This document shows positions 12,893 to 36,866 of a stretch of DNA of 64,000 nt, in pieces. A model generated the notes under the pieces. That model was given only the letters and a program-made list of their open reading frames with translations, did no database searches and was not told the origin of the DNA. The position numbers and the translations under genes were made by a program. The first letter of the stretch is position 1; each line of letters begins with the position of its first letter. The stretch comes from Novosphingobium sp. TH158. GTDB taxonomy: Bacteria > Pseudomonadota > Alphaproteobacteria > Sphingomonadales > Sphingomonadaceae. The DNA is taken from contig NZ_PKRT01000001.1 in the NCBI RefSeq assembly GCF_002855555.1, positions 496,001 to 560,000 of the forward strand, in the 5' to 3' direction.

Positions 12893-13216
12893 CCGGGGCT
12901 AGGCTGAAGCAGCCCGCCAGTCTGTACGCATTGCGCCGGGGCTGTCCTACATCCGGCAATTCTGCAAGAACCACGATCGCTCTTTGCAATCGTGGATGGA
13001 TCGGATGGGCAGAGCGCCTGCCTGCTGCGGAGTTTATTTTTTCCTGCGTGCTTTCGTGAGCGCGAGAAGCGGAAAATGGCGGAATAGTGCGGGCCGGGAA
13101 ACTGGACGCGAGGTTTACACGGTGTCAACCTTGTCAACCTCAACCCGGGAAGCAGATACCGTCCCGCCGATGGCGCGGGACTCGCCTCGGGCACCCAATT
13201 CTGCCAGCATCGCAAG
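12893..13216. other. 324-base intergenic region between parE and acyltransferase
   Basis: No credible gene lies here. Near 12971-12996 a 7-bp stem (CCACGAT/ATCGTGG) follows parE but has no T-run. The right half, about 13030-13145, is copy 1 of the dispersed element described separately. A short T-rich tract at 13035 sits at the left end of that element. Confidence 0.6.
13030..13145 (+). repeat. dispersed TGTCAACCT element, copy 1
   Basis: A roughly 115-base element upstream of the acyltransferase gene. Its right end, 13111-13140, is AGGTTTACA, CGG, TGTCAACCT, TGTCAACCT: one inverted and two tandem copies of a 9-mer. The left end carries TTTATTTTTT. A second copy lies upstream of ppdK (34643-34765, minus strand) with the 9-mers nearly identical and the T-rich tract at a similar distance. 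Both are in the same orientation relative to the downstream gene. Whether it is an operator array, a leader or a small mobile repeat is not known. Confidence 0.7.
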
Positions 13217-31969: not shown

Positions 31970-34622
31970 TCGCCGCCTGCGCCGCCGCCAGCCGGGCAAT
32001 CGGCACGCGATAGGGCGAGGCGCTGACGTAATCGAGGCCCTGGGCTTCGCAGAAGGCGATGCTGGCCGGATCGCCGCCATGCTCTCCGCAGATGCCCAGC
32101 TTGATTTCGGGACGGGTTTCCCGGCCGCGCTCTGCTGCGAGCGACACCAGTTGGCCGACCCCTTCGATATCGAGGCTGACAAAGGGATCGCGCGCGAAGA
32201 TGCCCTGTTCGACATAGGCGGGCAGGAACTTGCCCGCATCGTCGCGGCTGAGGCCCAGTGTCGTCTGCGTGAGGTCGTTGGTGCCGAAGGAGAAGAATTC
32301 GCCCACCTTGGCGATCTCGCCGGCCATCAGCGCCGCGCGCGGCAGCTCGATCGTCGTGCCGACATGGTATGAGAGCGTGCGGCCCTTTTCCTCGAACACC
32401 TTGGTGGCCGTCCGGTCGACAAGAGCCTTGAGGATCTCCAGTTCCTTCGCCGTGGCGACAAGCGGGATCATCACTTCGGGAACCGGTGCTTCGCCGGCCG
32501 CGGCAACCTCGCAAGCGGCCTCGAAGATGGCGCGGACCTGCATCTCGTAGATTTCCGGGAAGGTGATACCCAGCCGGCAGCCGCGATGGCCCAGCATCGG
32601 GTTGAATTCGTGGAGCTCCCCCGCCCTGCGCCGCAGCGTGGGGACGCCAATGCCGATCGCCTGCGAAAGCTCTTCGAACTCGGCATCGCCATGCGGCAGG
32701 AATTCGTGCAGCGGTGGATCGAGCAGGCGGATCGTCACTGGCAGGCCGGCCATCACCTCGAATATAGCGCGGAAATCGTCGCGCTGTTCAGGCAGCAGGC
32801 GGGTAAGCGCGGCGCGGCGGCCAGCCTCGTCCTCGGCCAGGATCATCTGGCGCACGGCAGAGATGCGGGCATCGTCGAAGAACATGTGCTCCGTGCGGCA
32901 CAGGCCGATGCCTTCCGCGCCGAACGCGCGCGCGGTGCGGCAATCGTCAGGCGTTTCGGCGTTGGTCCGCACCTTCATGCGGCGATGCCGGTCGGCCCAT
33001 TCCATCAGGGTGCCGAAATGGCCGGAAAGCTCGGGCTCCACGGTCGGAACCTTGCCCGCCATGATCTGACCGGTCGCGCCGTCGAGGGTGATGACATCCC
33101 CTTCCTTCAGCTCGCGCCCACCGATCTTAAGGGTGCGCGATGCCATGTCGATAGACACGCAGCTGGCACCGGAAACGCAAGGGCGACCCATGCCGCGCGC
33201 CACCACCGCGGCGTGGCTGGTCATGCCGCCGCGCGCGGTCAGGATGCCGCGGGCGGCGTGCATGCCGTGAATGTCTTCGGGGCTGGTTTCGACACGCACC
33301 AGGATCACCGCATCGCCGCGTTCGGCGCGCTTCTCGGCCATATCGGCATCAAGCACGATGGCGCCGGAAGCTGCACCCGGGCTGGCCGGCAGGCCCGTTC
33401 CCAGCACGTCGCGCGGGGCATCGGGATCAAGCGTGGGGTGCAGCAACTGGTCCAGAGCCATGGGATCGACCCGGCCAATCGCGGTGGCTTCGTCGATCAG
33501 GCTTTCCTCGACCATTTCCACCGCCATGCGCAGCGCCGCCTTGGCCGTGCGCTTGCCGCTGCGGGTCTGCAGCATCCACAGCTTGCCGCGTTCGACGGTG
33601 AATTCGATGTCCTGCATGTCGCGGTAGTGCTTTTCCAGCAGGTCGAACACGGCGGCGAGTTCGCCGTAGGCCGCGGGCATCGCTTCTTCCATGGAAAGCG
33701 GCTTGGCCCCGGCCTTTTCGCGGGCGGAGCGGGTCAGGTACTGCGGCGTGCGGATGCCGGCGACAACATCCTCGCCCTGGGCATTGACCAGCCATTCGCC
33801 GTAATAGGCGCGCTCGCCGGTCGCCGGATCGCGGGTGAAGGCTACGCCGGTGGCGCTGGTATCGCCCATGTTGCCGAAGACCATGGCCTGCACGTTCACC
33901 GCAGTGCCCCAGTCACCGGGAATGTCGTTCAGGCGGCGATAGACCCTTGCCCGGTCCGAATCCCAGCTGTCGAACACCGCGCGGATCGCGCCCCACAGCT
34001 GTTCGTTAACGTCCTGCGGGAAATCGCGGCCAAGCTCGTTGCGGACGATGGCCTTGTATTCGCCCACGATAGCCTGCCAGTTCTCAGCCGCCATCTCCAC
34101 ATCGGCGTAAAAGCCGTTGTCTTCCTTGGCGATTTCGAGTGCATCCTCGAACAGGTGATGGTCAAGGCCAAGCACCACGTCGGAATACATCTGAATGAAC
34201 CGGCGATAGGAATCCCAGGCAAAGCGCGCATCGCCCGAAGTCGCCGCCAGCCCTTCAACCGTTGCGTCGTTGAGGCCAAGGTTGAGCACCGTATCCATCA
34301 TGCCCGGCATCGAGACGCGGGCGCCCGAACGAACCGAGACAAGCAGCGGATCGGCAGCATCGCCAAAACGCTTTCCAACAGAAGTTTCGATATGATTCAG
34401 AGCTGTTTGGACTTCTTTCGTCAGGCTTTCCGAGAAGTCTGCACCTTCGGCAAGGTAGCGTACGCATTCTTCGGTGGTGATGGTAAAGCCCGGGGGAACC
34501 GGCAGGCCGATCCCGGCCATCTCCGCAAGGTTGGCACCCTTTCCGCCGACAATCGTCTTGTCGCGGCTACGGGGATCTTCACTGCGAACCCTGCCACCGA
34601 AGGTATAGATCTGCTTGTTCAT
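31950..34622 (-). CDS. ppdK: pyruvate, phosphate dikinase
   Basis: Interconverts pyruvate, ATP and phosphate with PEP, AMP and PPi. The 890-residue enzyme starts MNKQIYTFGG, the family start; a longer frame beginning in the repeat element at 34667 is ignored. N-terminal ATP-binding domain includes VGGKGANLAEMAGIGLPVPPG in outline, the phosphohistidine loop is RGGMTSHAAVVARGMG, and the PEP site has LGICGEHGGDP near the C-terminus with the catalytic Cys region. The leader contains copy 2 of the TGTCAACCT element 27-56 bases upstream of the ATG. Confidence 0.95.
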   Translation of the reverse strand: MNKQIYTFGGRVRSEDPRSRDKTIVGGKGANLAEMAGIGLPVPPGFTITTEECVRYLAEGADFSESLTKEVQTALNHIETSVGKRFGDAADPLLVSVRSGARVSMPGMMDTVLNLGLNDATVEGLAATSGDARFAWDSYRRFIQMYSDVVLGLDHHLFEDALEIAKEDNGFYADVEMAAENWQAIVGEYKAIVRNELGRDFPQDVNEQLWGAIRAVFDSWDSDRARVYRRLNDIPGDWGTAVNVQAMVFGNMGDTSATGVAFTRDPATGERAYYGEWLVNAQGEDVVAGIRTPQYLTRSAREKAGAKPLSMEEAMPAAYGELAAVFDLLEKHYRDMQDIEFTVERGKLWMLQTRSGKRTAKAALRMAVEMVEESLIDEATAIGRVDPMALDQLLHPTLDPDAPRDVLGTGLPASPGAASGAIVLDADMAEKRAERGDAVILVRVETSPEDIHGMHAARGILTARGGMTSHAAVVARGMGRPCVSGASCVSIDMASRTLKIGGRELKEGDVITLDGATGQIMAGKVPTVEPELSGHFGTLMEWADRHRRMKVRTNAETPDDCRTARAFGAEGIGLCRTEHMFFDDARISAVRQMILAEDEAGRRAALTRLLPEQRDDFRAIFEVMAGLPVTIRLLDPPLHEFLPHGDAEFEELSQAIGIGVPTLRRRAGELHEFNPMLGHRGCRLGITFPEIYEMQVRAIFEAACEVAAAGEAPVPEVMIPLVATAKELEILKALVDRTATKVFEEKGRTLSYHVGTTIELPRAALMAGEIAKVGEFFSFGTNDLTQTTLGLSRDDAGKFLPAYVEQGIFARDPFVSLDIEGVGQLVSLAAERGRETRPEIKLGICGEHGGDPASIAFCEAQGLDYVSASPYRVPIARLAAAQAAINASNR

Positions 34623-34642: not shown

Positions 34643-34765
34643 ACCTTGAGGTTGACAAGGTTGACACGGTGTCAACCTCGCCGTCCTGTGGCTCCGTCCC
34701 TGATTTCTGCCGTTTACCGGCAATTTCGAGACCGTCTGTTGCCGGGAAAATAAAAAAAGTCCGGC
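34643..34765 (-). repeat. dispersed TGTCAACCT element, copy 2
   Basis: On the minus strand (the ppdK direction) the core 34678-34649 reads AGGTTGACA, CCG, TGTCAACCT, TGTCAACCT. A T-rich tract (TTTTTTTATTTT) lies about 75 bases further upstream, as in copy 1 at 13030-13145. Core identity between copies is near complete apart from one or two bases; the middle is looser, with shared blocks such as a C-rich/T-rich TTTCCGG-like stretch. It fills most of the ppdK-glyS gap. Confidence 0.7.
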
Positions 34766-34778: not shown

Positions 34779-36866
34779 TTACCCTTCGATACGGCTGAAA
34801 TCGGCAACACGATGCACCGCGTCGCGGAACTGCGCGAGCAGTCCCAGGCGGGCAGAGCGTTTCGCCGGATCGGCATCGTTCACGGTCACCTCGTCGAAAA
34901 AGGCATCGATCGGCGCGCGCAGCGTGGCGAGAGCCGCCATGGCAGAAGCAAAGTCCTCGCCCTCCACGGCCGCGGCGGCACGCGGACCGGCCACCTCAAG
35001 CGCGTCGATCAGCGCCTTTTCCGCCTTTTCGGGCGTGTAGGACAGCGCATTCTGCACCTCGATCCGCTCCCGCATGGCGTGGGCCACATCGGGATCGTCG
35101 ACCATGGCAAAGGGGTCTTCCTCGCCATCGCGCGGGATGCGGGTGGTGGCCTCGAAGCCTTCCTTCTTCAGGATATTGGCGGCGCGCTTGTAACCGGCGA
35201 GCAGGTTCTTGCCGTCTTCGGTGCCCACGAAGGCCTGAAGTGCATGAACGCGGGCGAGCAGGCGGACAAGATCATCCTCGCCGCCCAGCGCGAAGACCGC
35301 GTCGATCAGGTCATGGCGAACCCCGGCTTCGCGCTGCTGGACCTTGAGGCGGTCGGCGAAGAAGGAAAGAACATCGCCTTCAGCGACGCCGAAGCGAAGG
35401 CCGTTGGCCGTGATGATCTGGATTATGCCCAGAGCTGCGCGGCGCAGGGCAAACGGGTCCTTTGACCCGGTGGGCTTCTCATCAATCGCAAAGAAGCTGC
35501 GAACCGTATCGAGTTTGTCCGCCAGCGCTACAGCAACGGTGACCGGCGCGGTGGGGACTTCATCGCCCTGCCCGACCGGCTTGTAATGGTCGGCTATGGC
35601 ATCGGCGACGGCACCGGGCAGGCCTTCGGCGCGGGCGTAATAACCGCCCATAAGGCCCTGAAGTTCAGGGAATTCGCCAACCATTTCAGTGACGAGATCA
35701 GCCTTGCACAGCCGCGCAGCAAGTTCGGCATCGTCAGCGCTGGCACCCTTTACGATCTCCTGCTCCACCAGCCAGCGCGCCAGCTTGGCGACGCGCTCGA
35801 CCTTGTCGGCAACGGTGCCCAGCTTTTCGTGGAAGGTGATGCGCGAAAGCTTCTTCGCCTGTTCGGCGAGCGGCACCTTGCGGTCCTGCTGCCAGAAGAA
35901 GCGCGCGTCGGACAGGCGGGCGGCGAGCACCTTGCGGTTGCCGGCGACGATGGCCTCGCCGCCGTCGCTTGCCTCGATATTGGCGGTGCAGACGAAGGCA
36001 TTGGCCAGCTTGCCGCCGCTTTCGCAGACGAAATACTTCTGGTTGGTGCGCGCGGTGAGCTGGATGACTTCGGGCGGAACCTCAAGAAATGCCTCGTCGA
36101 ACCGGCCGAGCAACGGCACCGGCCATTCGGTGAGGCCGGCGTTCTCGATGACCAGCCCCTCGTCCTCCACCAGCGTCAGCCCGGCAGCTTCGGCCGCGGC
36201 CTTGGCGCGGGTGCGGATCAGGTCCTGTCGCTCGACGTGATCGACGATGACGTGGCAGGCGCGCAGCTTTTCCTGGTAATCGGAAGCGCTGCCGATGGTG
36301 ATCTCGCCCGGGTGATGGAAACGGTGGCCCTTGGTGGCATAGCCCGAGGTCACGCCGCCAGCCTCGCATTCGACGAGCGTCTCGCCGAAGATGGCGACGA
36401 TGCCGGAAAGCGGGCGGACCCAGCGGGTGCTTTCGGTGCTGATCGATGCCGCGCCCCAGCGCTGCGACTTCGGCCAGGGGAAGGCGCGGATGATGGCCGG
36501 GATGGCCTCTGCCAGCACCTCTGCGGTGTTGCGGCCCGGCTTTTCGCTGATCGCAAAGAGTACGCCATCCCGCTCGACCAGCTGGTCCTCGGTGAGCCCG
36601 GTCTTGCGCAGGAAACCCTCGAGCGCTTGCGGCGGGGCGCCGACGCGCGGGCCCTTCACCTCTTCCGAGACAGCCGCAGTGGCATCGGGCAGGCCGCGCG
36701 CAATCAGCGCCAGTCGGCGCGGCGTGGACCACACGGTGATCTCGCCCACGGCGACACCGGCAGCGTCCATTTCCTTGCGGAACAGCTTTTCCAGATCGGC
36801 GCGCGCGCCGGCCTGCATGCGGGCGGGAATTTCTTCCGAGCGCAGTTCGAGGAGGAAATCGCTCAT
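34779..36866 (-). CDS. glyS: glycyl-tRNA synthetase beta subunit
   Basis: Beta chain of the alpha2-beta2 bacterial GlyRS, 695 residues, binding tRNA. It starts [17 protein letters not shown], the hallmark of the family, so I placed the ATG at 36866, overlapping the glyQ stop by ATGA. Later landmarks: [19 protein letters not shown] in outline, [32 protein letters not shown] and the C-terminal anticodon-binding helical domain. Confidence 0.95.

Follow-up and report, generated by a model that had tools for sequence, protein, structure and literature searches.

Within the 64,000-nucleotide stretch of Novosphingobium sp. TH158 DNA that was analysed (the window), the same small array of 9-base repeats stands upstream of two genes, one for an acyltransferase and one for ppdK, and the question raised by this locus is what the array is for and which protein reads it. 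An earlier note on this DNA had described a dispersed element of ~115 bp (13030-13145), and had suggested that it was a regulator-binding array or a small mobile leader element.

The repeated element in the window and in its genome

Both arrays were recovered from the window sequence as the earlier note had described them: copy 1, AGGTTTACACGGTGTCAACCTTGTCAACCT, at 13111-13140 on the forward strand, and copy 2, AGGTTGACACCGTGTCAACCTTGTCAACCT, at 34649-34678 on the reverse strand, upstream of ppdK. Each consists of an inverted 9-mer, a three-base spacer, and two direct 9-mers. The three 9-mers claimed for copy 1 are all present, two of them exact and the inverted one (TGTAAACCT) with 1 mismatch, and the T-rich tract reported upstream was also found (Table 1). 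The genome and its relatives were searched for the 30-base core, as the note had proposed. The whole-genome pattern search located 15 copies (7 forward, 8 reverse) in the 2.98-Mb genome, which is in three contigs; 12 of the copies fit the degenerate pattern exactly, and close core variants were present in a few other Novosphingobium genomes. The reversed pattern, used as a control, gave 0 matches in the same genome; a chance origin of the array was ruled out by these counts, and the claim of a binding array rather than chance is supported, the same architecture being found in other species.

Alignment of the copies gave a conserved unit of ~200 bp, which includes TGTCCTACA and GCTCTTTGCAAT in copy 1, and the extent of ~115 bp was too narrow. 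In the orientation of copy 1, the unit is made up of a left motif, T[T/G]TCCTACA, followed by N10, CTGNCA, often a boxA-like GCTCTTTGA, a T-tract or AT-rich stretch, and the array. A CTGNCATA-like block lies ~ten bases after the left motif; in copies from the TH158 genome, the T-tract lies ~70 nt before the array and, in some of them, GCTCTTTGA is found ~36 nt after the left motif. A single half-site upstream of the array is an extra part of the layout in several species.

Table 1. Coordinates of the parts of the two element copies in the window
Feature	Position	Strand	Remark
Left motif TGTCCTACA, copy 1	12943..12951	+	52 nt past the stop of a parE-like gene; read as the -35-like part of a putative GTA-type promoter
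TTCTGCAAGAAC, copy 1	12960..12971	+	Position of CTGNCATA in other copies (-10-like); weak here
boxA-like GCTCTTTGCAAT, copy 1	12979..12990	+	36 nt after the left motif
T-tract TTTATTTTTTCC, copy 1	13033..13044	+	Fixed distance from the array
Inverted half-site, copy 1	13111..13119	-	TGTAAACCT on the minus strand
Direct half-site TGTCAACCT, copy 1	13123..13131	+	
Direct half-site TGTCAACCT, copy 1	13132..13140	+	
Array AGGTTGACACCGTGTCAACCTTGTCAACCT, copy 2	34649..34678	-	Between glyS and ppdK; ppdK start codon at 34622, minus strand
T-tract GACTTTTTTTATTTTCCC, copy 2	34744..34761	-	
Left motif TGTCCTACA, copy 2	35036..35044	-	Inside the glyS coding sequence, codons of LSYTP

The boxA-like site was found in 28 of 64 elements, where 2.2 would be expected. 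The string has no origin in rRNA leaders, because exact GCTCTTTGACA occurs in the TH158 genome solely within one element. In elements of G175, G188, and G194 (L216-L251), a boxA-like GCTCTTTGAAAT was observed, its preferred spacing downstream of the left motif being 36-39 or 50-59 nt. An Rfam search of the window at gathering score found no RNA family at the element, a tRNA being the sole match. A plasmid or phage origin of the element was rejected, with no match to plasmids, matches of E~0.9 at best to phages, and no exact core in the viral contigs searched. No report of such sites was found in the library of papers that was searched.

In the TH158 genome, the unit usually starts just past the stop codon of the upstream gene. 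Eight of the 15 arrays end against the 3' end of a convergent gene, with 7-38 nt to its stop codon in most cases and 129 nt in one, and the remaining arrays are followed by the start of a downstream gene; genes outside the window were predicted by a simple caller that had learned codon usage from the window, and gene distances are rough in less GC-rich genomes. The acyltransferase and ppdK genes therefore do not have the element as a leader, and this part of the earlier proposal was dropped.

Arrays, terminase-like genes, and the gene transfer agent across species

The generic pattern ACACSGTGT-N6-TGT was run over 150 genomes of the genus. Elements of the same ~200-bp architecture with other half-sites (TGTCTCCTT, TGTAACCTT, TGTCGCTTT, TGTCACCTC) were found in other species, and G063 combines the left motif with an array of another sequence, GGACAGTGGTCCATGTGGTCCATG. 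Species with a dispersed array type of their own by the generic pattern include G175 (11 matches), G194 (20, two types), G188 (5), and G141 (4), among others. The left motif was present upstream in 36 of the 40 generic-pattern arrays that were fetched. A set of 88 arrays was taken from nine or ten genomes; some of the arrays are at orthologous positions and not fully independent. The left motif lies 100-300 bp upstream of 79 arrays (about one by chance), and 39 arrays have, 30-100 bp upstream, a single half-site that matches them, compared with 7.7 expected from shuffles. This lone fourth half-site is not above chance in the TH158 genome (2 vs 1.1) and is strong in some other species. Arrays with the left motif, of the same layout and with half-sites that differ, were also detected in other genera of Sphingomonadaceae.

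The glyS-ppdK site is a single orthologous position that carries different array types in different species. The left motif lies within glyS in the genomes with an array after this gene (G000, G063, G072, G080, G067, G082, G114, and G194, of which G080, G067, and G082 have a variant or degenerate array), and in 1 of ~21 genomes without such an array (G065). The LSYTPE codons in glyS of array-bearing species (L080-L109) spell T[T/G]TCCTACA, and in array-free G081 these residues are encoded by different codons; common descent may account for some of this association. Between the element and ppdK, remnants of a second glyS 3' end were noticed in the DNA of G072 and G067 (L087, L097), and G078 has a stretch like them; it looks as though the end of glyS had been replaced along with the element. 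In some species, in-frame insertions such as CCTTCGACAGGCTCAGGACG are found in the N-terminal coding region of ppdK (L097, L098).

A complete cluster resembling RcGTA, the gene transfer agent (GTA) of Rhodobacter capsulatus, is located at C1:2281491-2295121 of the TH158 genome and encodes small and large terminase, portal, protease, HK97 capsid, GTA hub, and megatron proteins; the GTA_TIM profile found no GTA, and the capsid, portal, GTA_megatron, and hub families did match. The left motif is absent from the main promoter of the cluster. It precedes the GTA_holin_3TM gene in the same genome and a DUF6456 gene in four species (TH158, G114, G080, and G086), DUF6456 proteins being the gafA homologues of these orders (PMC9765227). 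We infer that the motif is an activator-dependent promoter with a -35-like TTTCCT, ~17 nt, and a -10-like CATAAT; alternatively, the block might be a cosN-like cut site recognised by a conserved large terminase. A gene for a Cro/C1-type helix-turn-helix (HTH) protein, divergent from the gafA homologue, was observed at G000 C1:210710-211282 (L146), and its product may correspond to RogA, the GTA repressor of Caulobacter.

On contig C3 the element is long, and the left motif is followed by a gene for a 199-aa HTH protein, its stop codon, the T-tract, and the array; G072 has the same arrangement. The C3 protein and its relatives match the profile PHROG 4044 'terminase small subunit' with E values from 6e-10 to 1e-19, and the small terminase (TerS) of the GTA cluster gave a profile match of E 6e-14. 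C3 carries ordinary chromosomal genes, by which a separate replicon was ruled out. An AlphaFold model of the L059 protein, generated without an alignment, had a pLDDT of 41 and was set aside. TerS-like paralogues in other genomes have the same left motif upstream, and a large-terminase-like frame follows the relative in G081. The array-linked paralogues stand alone, without an adjoining terL, and the GTA-cluster copy adjoins terL; the dispersed short copies are gene-less and lack terS. No close relatives of the TerS-like protein were found in the viral contigs searched.

For the cases with readable DNA after the gene, an array of the genome's own type was found 3' of the closest paralogue in G000, G072, G080, G124, G141, and G187, and after two G194 genes, which have two different array types. 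The gene-adjacent array is of the dispersed type in 8/8 testable TerS-like genes from seven genomes. Summed over the eight arrays, the distance between gene-adjacent and dispersed types is 1 mismatch, compared with a permutation mean of 21, and the true genome assignment alone reaches this value (1 of 5040 permutations). The matches in G124, G141, and G187 were predicted before inspection, after the rule had been formulated, and their arrays, which the script's array pattern had not flagged, were read by eye from the sequence. The TerS-like gene of G175 runs off the contig end, and in G188, where dispersed arrays are present, no terminase-like gene was found beside a matching array. In another genus (G034, G262), an array lies directly 3' of a frame resembling the C-terminus of the G194 terminase-like protein, as seen by eye and missed by an automatic check with a narrow pattern. 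Two TerS-like paralogues of G194 (L152, L158) have near-identical recognition helices (MSRQSAYRLRSRL, MGRQSAYRLRSRL) and are followed by different half-sites (TGTAACTTG, TGTCTCTTT), and this pair is possibly a natural specificity switch.

Proposed packaging sites and the rival explanations

The reading preferred here, to which a probability of about 0.58 is given, is that the arrays are chromosomal recognition sites at which a GTA-linked, small-terminase-like HTH protein would start packaging. It is built on what can be read from the DNA, namely the element with its conserved parts and its scatter over the chromosome, the agreement of dispersed arrays with those beside the TerS-like genes, the homology to terminases, the left motif ahead of gafA and holin genes, and the GTA cluster; to these the model would add binding, promoter activity, recruitment, and directional packaging. 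The order and orientation of the repeats, which match those of phage lambda cosB (PMC4669245), also count in its favour. In each genome, a TerS-like gene would lie away from the GTA cluster with an array behind it, and up to ~20 dispersed, gene-less elements would carry arrays of the same type. Upon activation of the GTA regulon, the TerS-like protein would occupy the array and bend the AT-rich segment that separates the single upstream half-site from the group of three. It would then bring in the large terminase of the GTA, and packaging of chromosomal DNA would begin at the array sites. An AT-rich stretch was seen between the lone and the clustered repeats, and the IHF consensus is weakly enriched (15% vs 5%). 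No cosN-like nick site was identified in the element, and the retention by gene-less copies of a promoter-like motif, superfluous for a packaging site, was counted against packaging, as were the weak IHF signal, the chance-level lone half-site of the TH158 copies, the missing gene-array pair in G188, and the near-random packaging by RcGTA.

In a rival reading, the elements are transcription units of the GTA regulon, in which a TTTCCTACA-CTGNCATA promoter would drive a short non-coding RNA with a boxA-like site, and a TerS-like protein repurposed as a regulator would act at the array as at a terminator, roadblock, or operator. The motif does precede gafA, holin, and TerS-like genes, the boxA-like site is enriched as described above, and Caulobacter GafY binds ~20 promoters with IHF, GafZ being an anti-terminator (PMC11150451). 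We nevertheless consider this unlikely: 8 of the 15 TH158 copies face a convergent gene from its 3' side, an array directly past the TerS stop codon is poorly placed for autoregulation, and the Rfam search yielded no known RNA family.

The left motif, T-tract, and array common to short and long copies would also be expected of selfish cassettes, that is, descendants of a mobile TerS cassette that have lost the gene and persist through over-packaging into particles or are moved by some recombinase, with no benefit to the cell. Positions that differ between species, except for a few such as glyS-ppdK, and the second glyS 3'-end remnant that G072 and G067 carry past the element point the same way. 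The copies, however, have neither terminal inverted repeats nor a transposase, they diverge outside conserved parts that stay fixed, and the array type changes between species at the one orthologous glyS-ppdK position, which makes purely selfish elements quite improbable. The small mobile element of the earlier note keeps some plausibility, in that the short gene-less copies and the one long copy with a terminase-like gene share both ends; the lack of terminal inverted repeats and the orthology of some positions across species speak against it. As for an ordinary operator, through which a conventional regulator would control the acyltransferase and ppdK genes, the palindrome and direct half-site do lie just upstream of both start codons, but the targets are unrelated, half of the copies are at gene ends, those between convergent genes largely refute the reading, and the array types follow the terminase-like gene; we regard it as highly improbable. 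The protein that binds the array is likely the small-terminase-like HTH protein and not an ordinary operon regulator.

The broader proposition, for which the odds appear about even, is that Sphingomonadaceae possess a network of species-specific chromosomal packaging-start sites that co-evolve with a domesticated DNA-binding small terminase, and that their GTAs would move chosen regions and not random DNA. The GTA small terminases reviewed to date lack a DNA-binding domain, no packaging sites are known, and some GTAs display unexplained coverage peaks (PMC11841831). How GTAs choose their DNA is an open question, which the matched TerS and chromosomal sites make testable, since the set gives exact, oriented positions at which packaging should start. 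If the proposition is true, GTA-mediated transfer can be directed, and natural terminase-site pairs become available for recognition studies. The motif also offers a way of finding GTA-linked genes.

Comparison with known systems

The many short intergenic copies, with a few gene-bearing ones, recall MITEs and REPINs, from which the elements differ in having no terminal inverted repeats or transposase and in a conservation limited to functional parts; the ends of the aligned copies differ and their interior is divergent. Caulobacter has a set of ~20 dispersed, GTA-controlled sites, the promoters bound by GafY and IHF (PMC11150451), to which the elements would be comparable, but GafY sites are promoters of accessory genes and the GafY site (ACTATG region) is unlike the motifs found here. 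RcGTA packages DNA near-randomly with a TerS, gp1, that has no DNA-binding domain (PMC6854486, PMC11841831); the TH158 genome shares with it an RcGTA-like cluster and a TerS family linked to GTA genes, and differs in the extra HTH-bearing TerS paralogues that pair with chromosomal arrays. In PICI satellites (Rpp-TerS, altered cosB), the terminase specificity and the recognition site differ from those of the helper in a matched way (PMC6739421), as would be the case between species here, where there is no island, integrase, or helper phage and most elements are gene-less. In phage lambda, the small terminase binds cosB, in which R3 is followed by an IHF site (I1), an inverted R2, and R1 (PMC4669245). 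Unlike cosB, the elements are dispersed ~15 times on a bacterial chromosome and have one extra direct half-site, no cosN or cosQ was recognised, and the IHF site is at candidate level. The likeness to cosB lies in a site of ~200 bp with, where the lone half-site is present, a lone direct half-site, an AT-rich spacer, and an inverted and then a direct half-site, and in the long copies, which adjoin a gene of the small-terminase type.
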